Part shown: positions 15,583 to 32,740 of the stretch, piece by piece | How the letters are laid out: each line of letters opens with the position of its first letter | Position numbering within the stretch: position 1 is the first letter of the stretch | Source: Dehalococcoidia bacterium | Lineage (GTDB): Bacteria; Chloroflexota; Dehalococcoidia; Lucifugimonadales; Lucifugimonadaceae | Length of the DNA: 64,000 nt | Assembly (NCBI GenBank): GCA_028285005.1 | Contig: JANQQP010000016.1 | Span: forward strand, 62,001-126,000 | Direction: 5' to 3' | Translations under genes and position numbers: made by a program | Notes under the pieces: generated by a model | What the model saw: the letters and a program-made list of their open reading frames with translations, nothing else | The model's database searches: none | What the model was told of the DNA's origin: nothing

Positions 15583-16164
15583 TTGAAGCTCGGCGAATCT
15601 GACGCACTGATAATAGTTGATGTCCAGAACGACTTCTGTCCAGGCGGATCACTGGCGGTTGAGGGCGGCGACGAGATCGCCACTGCGCTGTCAGGACTGG
15701 CGATGCACTTCAGGATGAGCAGCGCCCGTATCTTCGCAACGCAGGACTGGCACCCTGAGAACCACTCGTCATTCAACGACAATGGCGGGCCGTGGCCTCC
15801 GCACTGTGTGCAGGGTTCGAAAGGCGCCGAGTTTCACGAGAACCTCGAGCTCCCGATCGGCACTTCGATAGTTCGCAAAGGAGCGAATCCGGAAGTCGAC
15901 GCATATTCCGGCTTCCTGGACTCCACGCTCGAAGAGCAACTCCGCCGCACCGACATTAAGAGGCTATTCGTTGGCGGTCTCGCCACCGATTACTGTGTGC
16001 TCAACACTGTGCTTGACGCCCGAGCGCTGGACTTCGACGTGTTCGTTGTCGAGGACGCCATTGCGGCCGTCAACGCGGAGGCCGAAGACGGCGAGAAGGC
16101 TGTCGAGAAGATGAAGGGCGCCGGGGCGGAGATGACGACAATCGATGGCGTCAAAGCTGCCTAA
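15583..16164 (+). CDS. pncA: nicotinamidase/isochorismatase family (TTG start)
   Basis: ALIIVDVQNDFCPGGSLAVEGGDE, FATQDWHPENHSSF, GGLATDYCVLNT. Confidence 0.93.
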   Translation: MKLGESDALIIVDVQNDFCPGGSLAVEGGDEIATALSGLAMHFRMSSARIFATQDWHPENHSSFNDNGGPWPPHCVQGSKGAEFHENLELPIGTSIVRKGANPEVDAYSGFLDSTLEEQLRRTDIKRLFVGGLATDYCVLNTVLDARALDFDVFVVEDAIAAVNAEAEDGEKAVEKMKGAGAEMTTIDGVKAA

Positions 16165-17444
16165 GAGTCGATTCTTTCGATGAGCGACTCCAACGCCGGA
16201 GTGAGGCGCACGGAGTAGGGCTCCGGGTCTTTGAGTCGCTTTACCTCTTCCGGCAGCATTTCCAACTGCTGCTGGAGCTTGGCGGCGACCGTCTCGATGT
16301 CATCCGGCTCCGCTTTGGGCTTGCCGTTCTTGAACACAGTTTCGAGTAGAGGCTGACTGCCGTTAGGAGGCGCTTCTCTGGCCGTCCCGATGTAGTCGCC
16401 AGTGAAGATCCCATTCTGCGAAGTGCGGAACACCTGCTTCGGTCCGGGTAAGGTCGCCTTTCCGGGACTGAGCTTCCTGGAGTTTCGGCGGTCGTATGTG
16501 ACGAGCTTGTAGACAGAGTCCAGGTATGGCGCGTCTGCGGAGACTACATAACGAGTGCCGACACCGAACGCGTCGATAGGCGCGCCGTCCGAGACGAGTT
16601 TTGCGATGGAGTGCTCGTCCAGGCCTCCAGTCGCAATGATCTTCACTTCGGTCAAGCCGGCGTCGTCGAGCATGCGTCTTGCCCGGCGTGAAAGAGCGTC
16701 CATGTCTCCGGAATCGAGCCTGATCGCGTTCAGGTTATGTTCTTGCGCCCGCATCTCCGTACCGACGGTGATCGCATTGCGAATTCCCTGTTCGACGTCG
16801 TAGGTGTCCACGAGCAGTGTGGTCGATTTCGGAAACTCACTTGCGTAGGCCCTGAACGCGGTTAGCTCATCTTCAAACGACTGAACGAACGAATGGGCCA
16901 TCGTCCCGGTGGACGGGATGCCGAACCTCGCCGCTGCCCTGAGGTTGCTGGTGCCTGAGAAGCCGGCGATTGCGGCGCAACGGGACGCGAGATCGGCCGC
17001 TTCGTCGCCCTGCGCACGCCTCGCTCCAAACTCCACCAAAGGCCGGTCCCCGGCAGCCTGCTTGATTCGGACCGCCTTCGTCAGCACCGCTGACTGGAAC
17101 GTGACCGCGTTCAGGAGCGCGGTCTCGAGTATCTGCGCTTCGACTAGAGGCGCGGTGACCTCGAGCACCGGTTCATCTGCGAAGACCACGGAGCCTTCGC
17201 TCACTAATCGTACTGAGCCGCTGAACCTGAAGTCTGCAAGCGCCTCCAGAAAGTCCGGCATCAGTGGCGTGGTCGCCCTCAAGTAGTCGATGTCTTCGCC
17301 CGTGAATCGAGCGGACTCGATGTGAGCAAGCGCAGAGTCGATGCCTGCAACTGCGTAGAACGCTCGATCGGGTGGATAGCCACGGAAGAACAGACTGAAG
17401 GTAGCTGTGCCGTTCATACCTCGCCGCCAGAAGGCCTGAGCCAT
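16161..17444 (-). CDS. pncB: nicotinate phosphoribosyltransferase
   Basis: GTSNLRAAARFGIPSTGTMAHSFVQSF, VDTYDVEQGIRNA, IRLDSGDMDALSRRAR. Confidence 0.93.
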   Translation of the reverse strand: MAQAFWRRGMNGTATFSLFFRGYPPDRAFYAVAGIDSALAHIESARFTGEDIDYLRATTPLMPDFLEALADFRFSGSVRLVSEGSVVFADEPVLEVTAPLVEAQILETALLNAVTFQSAVLTKAVRIKQAAGDRPLVEFGARRAQGDEAADLASRCAAIAGFSGTSNLRAAARFGIPSTGTMAHSFVQSFEDELTAFRAYASEFPKSTTLLVDTYDVEQGIRNAITVGTEMRAQEHNLNAIRLDSGDMDALSRRARRMLDDAGLTEVKIIATGGLDEHSIAKLVSDGAPIDAFGVGTRYVVSADAPYLDSVYKLVTYDRRNSRKLSPGKATLPGPKQVFRTSQNGIFTGDYIGTAREAPPNGSQPLLETVFKNGKPKAEPDDIETVAAKLQQQLEMLPEEVKRLKDPEPYSVRLTPALESLIERIDS

Positions 17445-17567: not shown

Positions 17568-18167
17568 TTAGGTGGCCCGGACGGTAGCCAGTAGCTCGGC
17601 GGCGGTTGGCCGGTCGGCGATGTCTTCGGCTATGCGGTAAGCGAACAGGTTGCCCTCGGCATCAAACACATACGCGGCCGGTGCCGAGACACCGTCATCA
17701 AGCAGGTTGAAGATCCCCCACGCACGAGCCACGTCTGCATTGCTGTCATGCAGCACCGGGAACTGCAGTGCGTAGCGCTCGGCCATGCGAGCGGCATCGA
17801 ACTCATCATCAACACTGATAGCGATGACCTGCGCGCCGCTCGCCAGGAATTCGGCGTAGCGCTCTTGCAGCTCCACGAGCTGCGCATGGCAGATGCCTCA
17901 GAAGAAGCCGCGGTAGAAGACCACGACCACAGGCTGCTGGCCGCGGATTTCCGAGAATCTGACGACCTGGCCGTTGCTGGCGCCAAGCGTGAAATCAGGC
18001 GTCGCCACATCGTCCGGTGCCAGTCGGAGGATCCGGTCGTACTGGCCGTTTGTAGGCGGCAGTGAGCGGCCAGATGAGTCTGTGGCCGGCTCGTCTGAAC
18101 CGCATGCGGCTGCCACGGCGACCAGCAGGACCGCCGAGATGACAAGCAGGAGTCGAAGAGACTTCAT
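17568..18167 (-). CDS. peroxiredoxin/AhpC-TSA-like lipoprotein, probable selenoprotein (in-frame TGA = Sec at 17898-17900)
   Basis: Two track ORFs (17898-18167 and 17568-17876) are in the same frame, separated only by TGA; fusion gives ...PVVVVFYRGFF-U-GICHAQLVELQERYAEFLASGAQVIAISVD..., with TGA at the active-site Cys of the FYRGxxCxxC motif; N-terminal lipoprotein signal LLVAVAAACGSD. Confidence 0.85.
17867..17883 (-). promoter_or_regulatory. candidate bacterial SECIS hairpin downstream of Sec UGA
   Basis: On the minus strand GCAGCTC-GTG-GAGCTGC: perfect 7-bp stem, 3-nt loop beginning with G, loop starting 21 nt after the UGA. Confidence 0.75.
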
Positions 18168-18309: not shown

Positions 18310-20436
18310 CTAAACGAACAGCGGACCGAAGATCAGCGAAACGACCGCCATCAACTTCAGCAGGATGTTGATGGAAGGGCCTGATGTGTCCTTGAACGGG
18401 TCTCCGACGGTGTCACCGGTGACGGCCGCCGCGTGCGCGTCCGATCCCTTGCCACCGTGGTGTCCGAGTTCGATGTACTTCTTGGCGTTGTCCCAGGCTC
18501 CACCTGCGTTAGCCATGAAGATGGCGAGCAGGAAGCCGGTGACGATTGAGCCTGCGAGCAGGCCACCAAGAGCGTTGGCACCGAGAATTCCGCCGACGAT
18601 GATCGGCGCAACAATGGCGACGAGACCCGGCAGAATCATGGCTCGGAGCGCACCGGTAGTCGAGATCGCAACTGCCTGGGCAGCGTCTGGCTTCACGCCT
18701 TCGCGTCCCTCTTTCAGGCCTGGAATCTCACGGAACTGTCTGCGCACCTCTTCGATCATGAAGCCCGCGGCTGTTCCGACGGCCTGCATCGTTAATCCGG
18801 AGAAGAGGAACGGTAATAAGGCACCAATTAAGGCTCCAATCAGCACTTCTGCAGTGAGCAGGTCGAGCGTGGTGATACCGGCCATCTGGCCGTACGCCGC
18901 CATCAGAGCAAGCGCCGTCAGGACGGCAGATCCGATAGCGAAGCCTTTACCGGTCGCAGCCGTAGTGTTCCCAAGTGCGTCGAGAGCGTCGGTGCGCTCC
19001 CGGACTTCTGGCTCCAGGTGTGCCTGCTCGGCGATTCCGCCTGCGTTGTCGGCGACCGGACCGTAGGCGTCCGTCGCCAGCGTCACTCCAAGGGTCGCAA
19101 GCATACCGACCGCGGCCAGGCCGACGCCGTAGAGTCCTGCCAGTTCGTTGGCAGCCCAGACACCGATCACAACCGAGATGGTTGGGATTAGCGTGCTGTA
19201 GAAGCCGACTGCGACACCGGCGATGATGGTTGATGGGTGGCCGGTCTCAGACTGCTTCGCAATCCACGAAACCGGGTTGATGCTGATCGAGCCGAGCTTG
19301 AAGCCTTCGTAGGAGGTGAACCACTCGGTAGATGTGCCGATCACCTGTCCAACCACCAGCCCAATAACCACCACCCAGAAGAGGTCATAGTCACGACTTA
19401 ATCCAGGCAGGTTGTCTGTGAAGTCCATCTGAGAGATGGCGGCGGCGACGCCGATGAGCACGAGGCCTCCAGCGCCGAATATCCCGAACCGCAAAGCCCA
19501 CAACAACCTTCCCATCGTGGCCTCTGGTGGAGTGCGGACGAGCGCGGTTCCAATAAGCGCGGCGAAGATGCCGATGCCTGCTACGAGTATCGGAAGAACG
19601 ACTAAGTCGGCGTCGTACTGAATCGTGCCGCCGGTTGCCGCAGCGCCGACCGAGAAGGCCAGCGCGATCGTCGCGATGATGGACCCGACGTACGACTCGA
19701 AGAGGTCAGCGCCCATGCCGGCGACGTCACCAACGTTGTCGCCGACATTGTCAGCGATTACAGCCGGGTTTCGAGGGTCGTCCTCAGGCAGTCCCGCTTC
19801 AACCTTTCCGACGAGGTCGGCTCCAACGTCAGCGGCCTTGGTGTAGATTCCTCCGCCAACTCTTGCGAACAGGGCGATTGACGATGCACCGAAGCCAAAT
19901 CCGGCGATGACGTTGGGGTCACGGAACACGAGCCAGAGCAGGGTCACTCCGACGAGGCCGAGACCAACTACGGTCAAGCCCATCACCGTTCCGCTGCCGA
20001 ATGCGACTCGAAGCGCCGGGTTCAATCCAGTCTGTGCGGCTGTGGCGGTACGAGTGTTTGCTCGCACCGCAATGCTCATTCCGGCCCAGCCTGCGAGGCC
20101 CGAGCCGATGGCACCAACAAGATAGGAGATGGCGGTCCAGGGACCGTCACCCTCGATGCCACCTTCACCCCGCAGATCCTGGAGCTGCTCGATTCGATCG
20201 TTGTCGAGGATGTTGAAGTCGATGAACAGCGCTACAAGCACGAACACGACTATCACGAAGGCTGCGAGATAGAGGTACTCGCGTCGCAGGAATGCGATCG
20301 CACCTTCCTGGATCAGCGCCCCGATGTCCCTGACTGCGTCTGTTCCTGACGACTTGCTGGTAACCCACCTGGCGAACCCGCCTGCTGCGAGGAGCGCAAC
20401 TGCACCCGCGATGATCGCCACCATCATTGAGCTCAT
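18310..20436 (-). CDS. hppA: membrane-bound ion-translocating pyrophosphatase (K+-dependent type motif)
   Basis: VGGGIYTKAADVGADLVGKVEAGLPEDDPRNPAVIADNVGDNVGDVAGMGADLFES; GNTTAATGKGFAIGSA. Confidence 0.97.
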   Translation of the reverse strand: MSSMMVAIIAGAVALLAAGGFARWVTSKSSGTDAVRDIGALIQEGAIAFLRREYLYLAAFVIVVFVLVALFIDFNILDNDRIEQLQDLRGEGGIEGDGPWTAISYLVGAIGSGLAGWAGMSIAVRANTRTATAAQTGLNPALRVAFGSGTVMGLTVVGLGLVGVTLLWLVFRDPNVIAGFGFGASSIALFARVGGGIYTKAADVGADLVGKVEAGLPEDDPRNPAVIADNVGDNVGDVAGMGADLFESYVGSIIATIALAFSVGAAATGGTIQYDADLVVLPILVAGIGIFAALIGTALVRTPPEATMGRLLWALRFGIFGAGGLVLIGVAAAISQMDFTDNLPGLSRDYDLFWVVVIGLVVGQVIGTSTEWFTSYEGFKLGSISINPVSWIAKQSETGHPSTIIAGVAVGFYSTLIPTISVVIGVWAANELAGLYGVGLAAVGMLATLGVTLATDAYGPVADNAGGIAEQAHLEPEVRERTDALDALGNTTAATGKGFAIGSAVLTALALMAAYGQMAGITTLDLLTAEVLIGALIGALLPFLFSGLTMQAVGTAAGFMIEEVRRQFREIPGLKEGREGVKPDAAQAVAISTTGALRAMILPGLVAIVAPIIVGGILGANALGGLLAGSIVTGFLLAIFMANAGGAWDNAKKYIELGHHGGKGSDAHAAAVTGDTVGDPFKDTSGPSINILLKLMAVVSLIFGPLFV

Positions 20437-32623: not shown

Positions 32624-32680
32624 CGTACGCGGCTCGATTCCCGGCGATGACAGTGGATCTTCGTCCGGGCATTTTGGTTG

Positions 32681-32740
32681 GGCAGAGCAAGTGACTCTTA
32701 ATCACTAGGTTCGGGGTTCGAATCCCCGGCGCGTCACCAA
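32681..32740 (+). repeat. partial tRNA-Lys duplicate (attR-like)
   Basis: ggcagagcaagtgactcttaatcactaggttcggggttcgaatccccggcgcgtcaccaa identical to 31033-31092; lacks the tRNA 5' end. Confidence 0.95.

Follow-up and report, generated by a model that had tools for sequence, protein, structure and literature searches.

The closest described relatives of the gene studied here are the "Prx-like" selenoproteins, in which UXXC replaces TXXU. This family was reported from the Sargasso Sea (PMC1088965), and later papers list it as a Prx-like thiol:disulfide oxidoreductase with PF00578 and a UxxC or UxxU motif (PMC1794560, PMC13188914). Our gene is placed in this family by the features stated for it: PF00578, a thioredoxin-like UxxC for TxxU, UGA recoding, and Cys homologues in other bacteria are common to both. 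Our family differs from the published descriptions as a predicted Chloroflexota lipoprotein with several paralogues per genome, tandem genes, and chains with several selenocysteines (multi-Sec chains). Lipoprotein export, expansion in Chloroflexota, and multi-Sec chains were not found for the Prx-like family in the open-access literature searched. A search of that literature for selenoproteins of SAR202, Dehalococcoidia, and Chloroflexota gave no report of the family of our gene, which in Chloroflexota is large and apparently unreported. The PrxU-type Sec peroxiredoxins (TxxU, NF040737) share with our protein the peroxiredoxin fold and a UGA-encoded active-site Sec, but the Sec of our protein lies three residues earlier, at the Thr position, and the score against NF040737 (45.4 bits, cut-off 270) does not make it a member. 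The top-scoring NCBIfam model is NF040769 (SelL-related redox protein), which matches 18 of 18 family members; our protein, with 58.9 bits where 120 are required, does not belong there either. NF041057, the Rcas_1661 family of thioredoxin-like (seleno)lipoproteins, is a named selenolipoprotein family that matches 3 of the 18 members weakly and has no match to our protein at E 0.1. None of the NCBIfam selenoprotein cut-offs is exceeded by the protein.

The gene lies on the minus strand of the window, the whole 64,000-nt stretch of DNA analysed, and its features are listed in Table 1. The frame runs from an ATG at 18167 to a TAA at 17570-17568, with the TGA at 17900-17898 (codon 90 of 200) as its sole interruption. 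The upstream ORF, 18167-17898(-), closes at this TGA, the next possible start is a GTG at 17876, seven codons on, and standard gene calling yields two fragments. These coordinates confirm the earlier note on this DNA, which had described two minus-strand ORFs in one frame, split by a TGA and with seven codons to the next start. The layout of open frames is no evidence by itself, since the window holds 8 TGA codons with flanking open stretches at least as long on both sides; the evidence is homology. A redox motif around the TGA was looked for at the other seven sites and none was found. The gene stands alone between its two neighbours, so that no operon context hints at the substrate. Elsewhere in the window, positions 32668-32736 (+) give a weak tRNA match (31.1 bits, Rfam cut-off 29 bits) for which ARAGORN makes no call.

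Table 1. Features of the probable selenoprotein gene and its neighbours, in window coordinates
Feature	Position	Strand	Basis
Selenoprotein gene, 199 residues with Sec90, complete	17568..18167	-	stop is TAA; homologues TGA-bearing
Predicted N-terminal signal peptide, lipobox VAAA-C	18105..18167	-	sequence pattern; helix 3-19 in model
Putative lipid-attachment Cys22	codon 18104-18102	-	lipobox by pattern
AhpC/TSA (peroxiredoxin-fold) domain, residues 56-174	17646..18002	-	PF00578
UGA codon 90, selenocysteine reading	17898..17900	-	TGA in 64/80 homologous domains
Cys93, second residue of UxxC (U90-G-I-C93)	17889..17891	-	invariant in A1; alignment to 2ywn
SECIS-type hairpin GCAGCUC-GUG-GAGCUGC, 7 bp stem	17867..17883	-	pairing conserved across Sec genes
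Membrane pyrophosphatase-like neighbour gene	18310-20436		name by eye
Nicotinate phosphoribosyltransferase-like neighbour gene	16161-17444		name by eye

A homologue is present in 213 of 393 genomes of the class, and nearly all of the best matches carry exactly one TGA. The 64 domains with TGA at the column of our gene all have Cys at +3 (UxxC), and the column TGA is nearly always their sole in-frame TGA. The remaining domains of the 80 are two with Cys-Cys, one TxxU peroxiredoxin, one YxxC, four redox-dead paralogues, and otherwise Ser/Thr-xx-Cys peroxiredoxins. The homologues thus have U or C at this position, as the selenocysteine proposal had foreseen, and S, T, Y, D, and N occur only in paralogues or distant peroxiredoxin types. 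A more distant peroxiredoxin of the same class (L091, G151:C2) has its TGA at the second position, giving the classical Sec-Prx motif TxxU. Same-genus relatives are 54% and 49% identical to our protein over the whole length and have TGA at the same codon. Cys homologues with FYRGxWCPxC occur in many phyla; the contig scan for homologues used a Cys pattern and returned Cys homologues only. In a quick tree of 76 Sec and 85 Cys rows, many inner branches of which are poorly supported, our gene clusters with the same-genus Sec genes, and the Sec and Cys labels need only 7 changes each, which indicates that Sec is an inherited state in this Chloroflexota group with few conversions.

The two fragments given by standard gene calling would suit a pseudogene, that is, a nonsense mutation truncating a Cys peroxiredoxin. 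This reading is highly improbable and was rejected, because independent genera and families have TGA at the same codon; the earlier note had likewise argued that a chance mutation would be unlikely to hit it. Conservation is also no lower after the TGA than before it, with 67 of 109 residues identical to the relative L026 in the second half and 42 of 83 in the first, and the differences between the two genes cluster at third codon positions (67 versus 33 and 24). An error of sequencing or assembly, with TGA standing for TGC or TGT, might be suspected in a draft of 46 contigs, and the note had raised it against its own reading; the probability of such an error is close to nil, as the same TGA is found in dozens of separate assemblies of independent genomes, including the single-contig genomes G298, G264, and G332. 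If UGA had been reassigned across the lineage to a standard amino acid, it would also be open in frame as seen here. This explanation has a negligible chance, since TGA is the ordinary terminator of 14 of the window's 36 long non-overlapping ORFs and the in-frame TGAs of the homologues sit at the redox column, with a SECIS-type hairpin after them.

The source genome, a draft of 3.29 Mb estimated at 87.7% completeness, contains all four of the genes that the note had named for a search, selA, selB, selC, and selD. The tRNA-Sec (selC) scores 69.7 bits, above the Rfam cut-off, and has the anticodon TCA; selB scores 326 bits, and selA (549 bits) is found on the same contig as the window, about 6 kb before it. 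The selD gene (367 bits; L020, G000:C34:5758-6684) has one in-frame TGA of its own (...SCAGUAGK...). Sec-containing SelD proteins are known and the TGA of this selD resembles them, so that the SelD of the source genome is probably itself a selenoprotein. The strongest TGA homologues come from 34 genomes, 33 of which have tRNA-Sec; for the class as a whole the figure is 270 of 393 (hypergeometric 2.7e-5). The one exception, G308, is a fragmented 320-contig draft in which selB is present. Contrasted with genomes lacking the TGA across the whole class the association is weak, because tRNA-Sec is common there.

A SECIS element near the UGA had been proposed as a further check, and the search revealed a hairpin with a stem conserved beyond coding constraint. 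The stem-loop begins 14 nt after the UGA and overlies the codons for Q-L-V-E-L. In bacterial SECIS elements the apical loop lies about 16-37 nt from the UGA and has a G early in the loop; the loop of our hairpin, GUG, lies 21 nt from the UGA and agrees in both respects. Across the Sec genes, the codons for Gln and for the second Leu covary at synonymous positions: the combinations at codons +6/+10, counted in related and non-independent sequences, are CAG/CTG in 30, CAA/TTG in 21, the G-U pairing CAG/TTG in 6 together with one further G-U pair, and CAA/CTG in 1 (Fisher 6e-9). Stem cells are paired in 88.6% of cases, compared with 16-44% when the strand is slid. When codons were drawn synonymously by each gene's own usage, 4.55 of the 7 pairs were expected and 6.2 observed in the Sec genes (Wilcoxon p=5e-12), whereas the Cys homologues (n=82) have no pairing excess (3.04 observed, 3.15 expected). 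This difference indicates that the hairpin at 17883-17867 is likely the SECIS element. In our gene alone all 7 pairs form against 4.7 expected (P 0.02), and folding of the 76 nt around its UGA alone is not significant (z -0.36). On the tree, 6 of 126 branches change both sides of the stem, with 14 changes per side (P 0.001). The most stringent test, restricted to independent pairs on branches with support, gave 4 of 6 pairs the same way and 0 opposite (p about 0.125), which is consistent with the covariation but underpowered.

The read-through protein matches PF00578 (AhpC-TSA) with 103 bits (cut-off 26, 1.3e-29), and the match spans the TGA. The AlphaFold model has a mean pLDDT of 87, mostly 89-98 from residue 51 on, and positions Sec90 at the start of helix 91-102. 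The best matches among solved structures are peroxiredoxins such as Bcp4 and AhpE. In the alignment to solved peroxiredoxins Sec90 falls on the TxxC Thr and Cys93 on the peroxidatic Cys, indicating that Sec takes the place of the first Cys in a CxxC of the thioredoxin type and not that of the canonical peroxidatic Cys. The earlier proposal that the TGA replaces the redox Cys to give UxxC is therefore correct as to UxxC, but not as to the position of a canonical peroxidatic Cys. The putative lipoprotein signal that had been read at the N terminus shows the pattern VAAA-C22, and many homologues share a hydrophobic stretch and a similar lipobox, likewise by pattern.

Computation has shown the fold, the presence of the Sec machinery, and the conservation of both the TGA column and the hairpin, and with the TGA in homologues, selA/B/C/D, and the hairpin the selenocysteine reading made beforehand has gained support. 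We consider it very likely (probability about 0.93) that the UGA at 17900-17898 encodes Sec in an exported peroxiredoxin-fold lipoprotein and that its decoding is directed by the hairpin. Sec insertion, lipidation, the substrate, the electron donor, and the catalytic order are what we infer from these results. SelB with Sec-tRNA(Sec) would decode the UGA under the direction of the hairpin, and the protein would be exported, lipidated at Cys22, and anchored at the outer face of the membrane, where Sec90 and Cys93 would form a UxxC redox pair. Selenium chemistry favours Sec90 as the nucleophile and Cys93 as the resolving residue. Sec90 would most likely attack a peroxide or a substrate disulfide, Cys93 would resolve it as a selenenylsulfide, and this could then be reduced by an extracytoplasmic thioredoxin-like donor.

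The same Sec-containing protein may be a thiol:disulfide oxidoreductase of the thioredoxin/ResA type instead of a peroxidase, a possibility to which we give slightly less than an even chance. The UxxC sits at the place of the CxxC of thioredoxins, ResA ranks second among the NCBIfam matches (53 bits, short of the cut-off), the profile also matches ResA structures, and "thiol:disulfide oxidoreductase" is the family name used in the literature (PMC13188914). The best Pfam and fold matches, on the other hand, are peroxiredoxins, e.g. AhpE and Bcp. As far as the motif goes, UxxC would fit a disulfide reductase and a peroxidase equally well.

Beyond our gene, the source genome has at least three further Sec members, on contigs C12 and C32 and in a two-domain protein on C44. 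The latter (L056, G000:C44:164200-166600) is a predicted two-domain lipoprotein with CxxC in its first domain and UxxC in its second. In related genomes, e.g. G318, G288, and G388, two to three such genes lie in tandem, and family members were also found in other classes of Chloroflexota. Chains with two Sec domains occur in G378, G257, G303, and G313, and the two-domain chains L048, L031, L032, and L033 carry an in-frame TGA in each of their two domains. A 705-residue frame of the single-contig genome G298 (L074, G298:C1:2059700-2062800, minus strand) comprises three peroxiredoxin-like domains joined by Pro/Thr-rich linkers, each with its own in-frame TGA (UGIC, UGFC, UGYC) and its own hairpin, an apparent triple-Sec lipoprotein. 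These multi-Sec chains are computed readings, and for the family, which is expanded in the class, export as lipoproteins is predicted from the sequence pattern. Our gene has about an even chance of being one unit of an expanded modular selenolipoprotein family in Chloroflexota, in which Pro/Thr-linked chains with two to three Sec, one hairpin per domain, and Sec members with Cys or redox-dead partners would jointly form a cell-surface redox relay. This modular multi-Sec lipoprotein expansion is more novel than the gene itself.

Standard annotation splits such genes or labels them pseudogenes, and a whole surface antioxidant or redox system may therefore be invisible in Chloroflexota genomes. 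The conserved hairpin together with its synonymous covariation provides a clean signature for finding more members. Chains with several Sec would be unusual among bacteria, since each UGA in the one message needs a local hairpin of its own for recoding, and such chains would offer a natural experiment on the efficiency with which several consecutive UGAs are read through in bacteria. The family also includes paralogues in which the two redox residues are both lost (L070, L071, L072, and L073), which have, for instance, TTDELDI for UxxC. Three of these (L070, L071, and L073) adjoin a Sec member, and a redox-dead paralogue lies beside a Sec gene in the relatives G366, G374, and G190. In the tree L070-L073 form one clade, the sister of which is the CxxC domain of the source genome.
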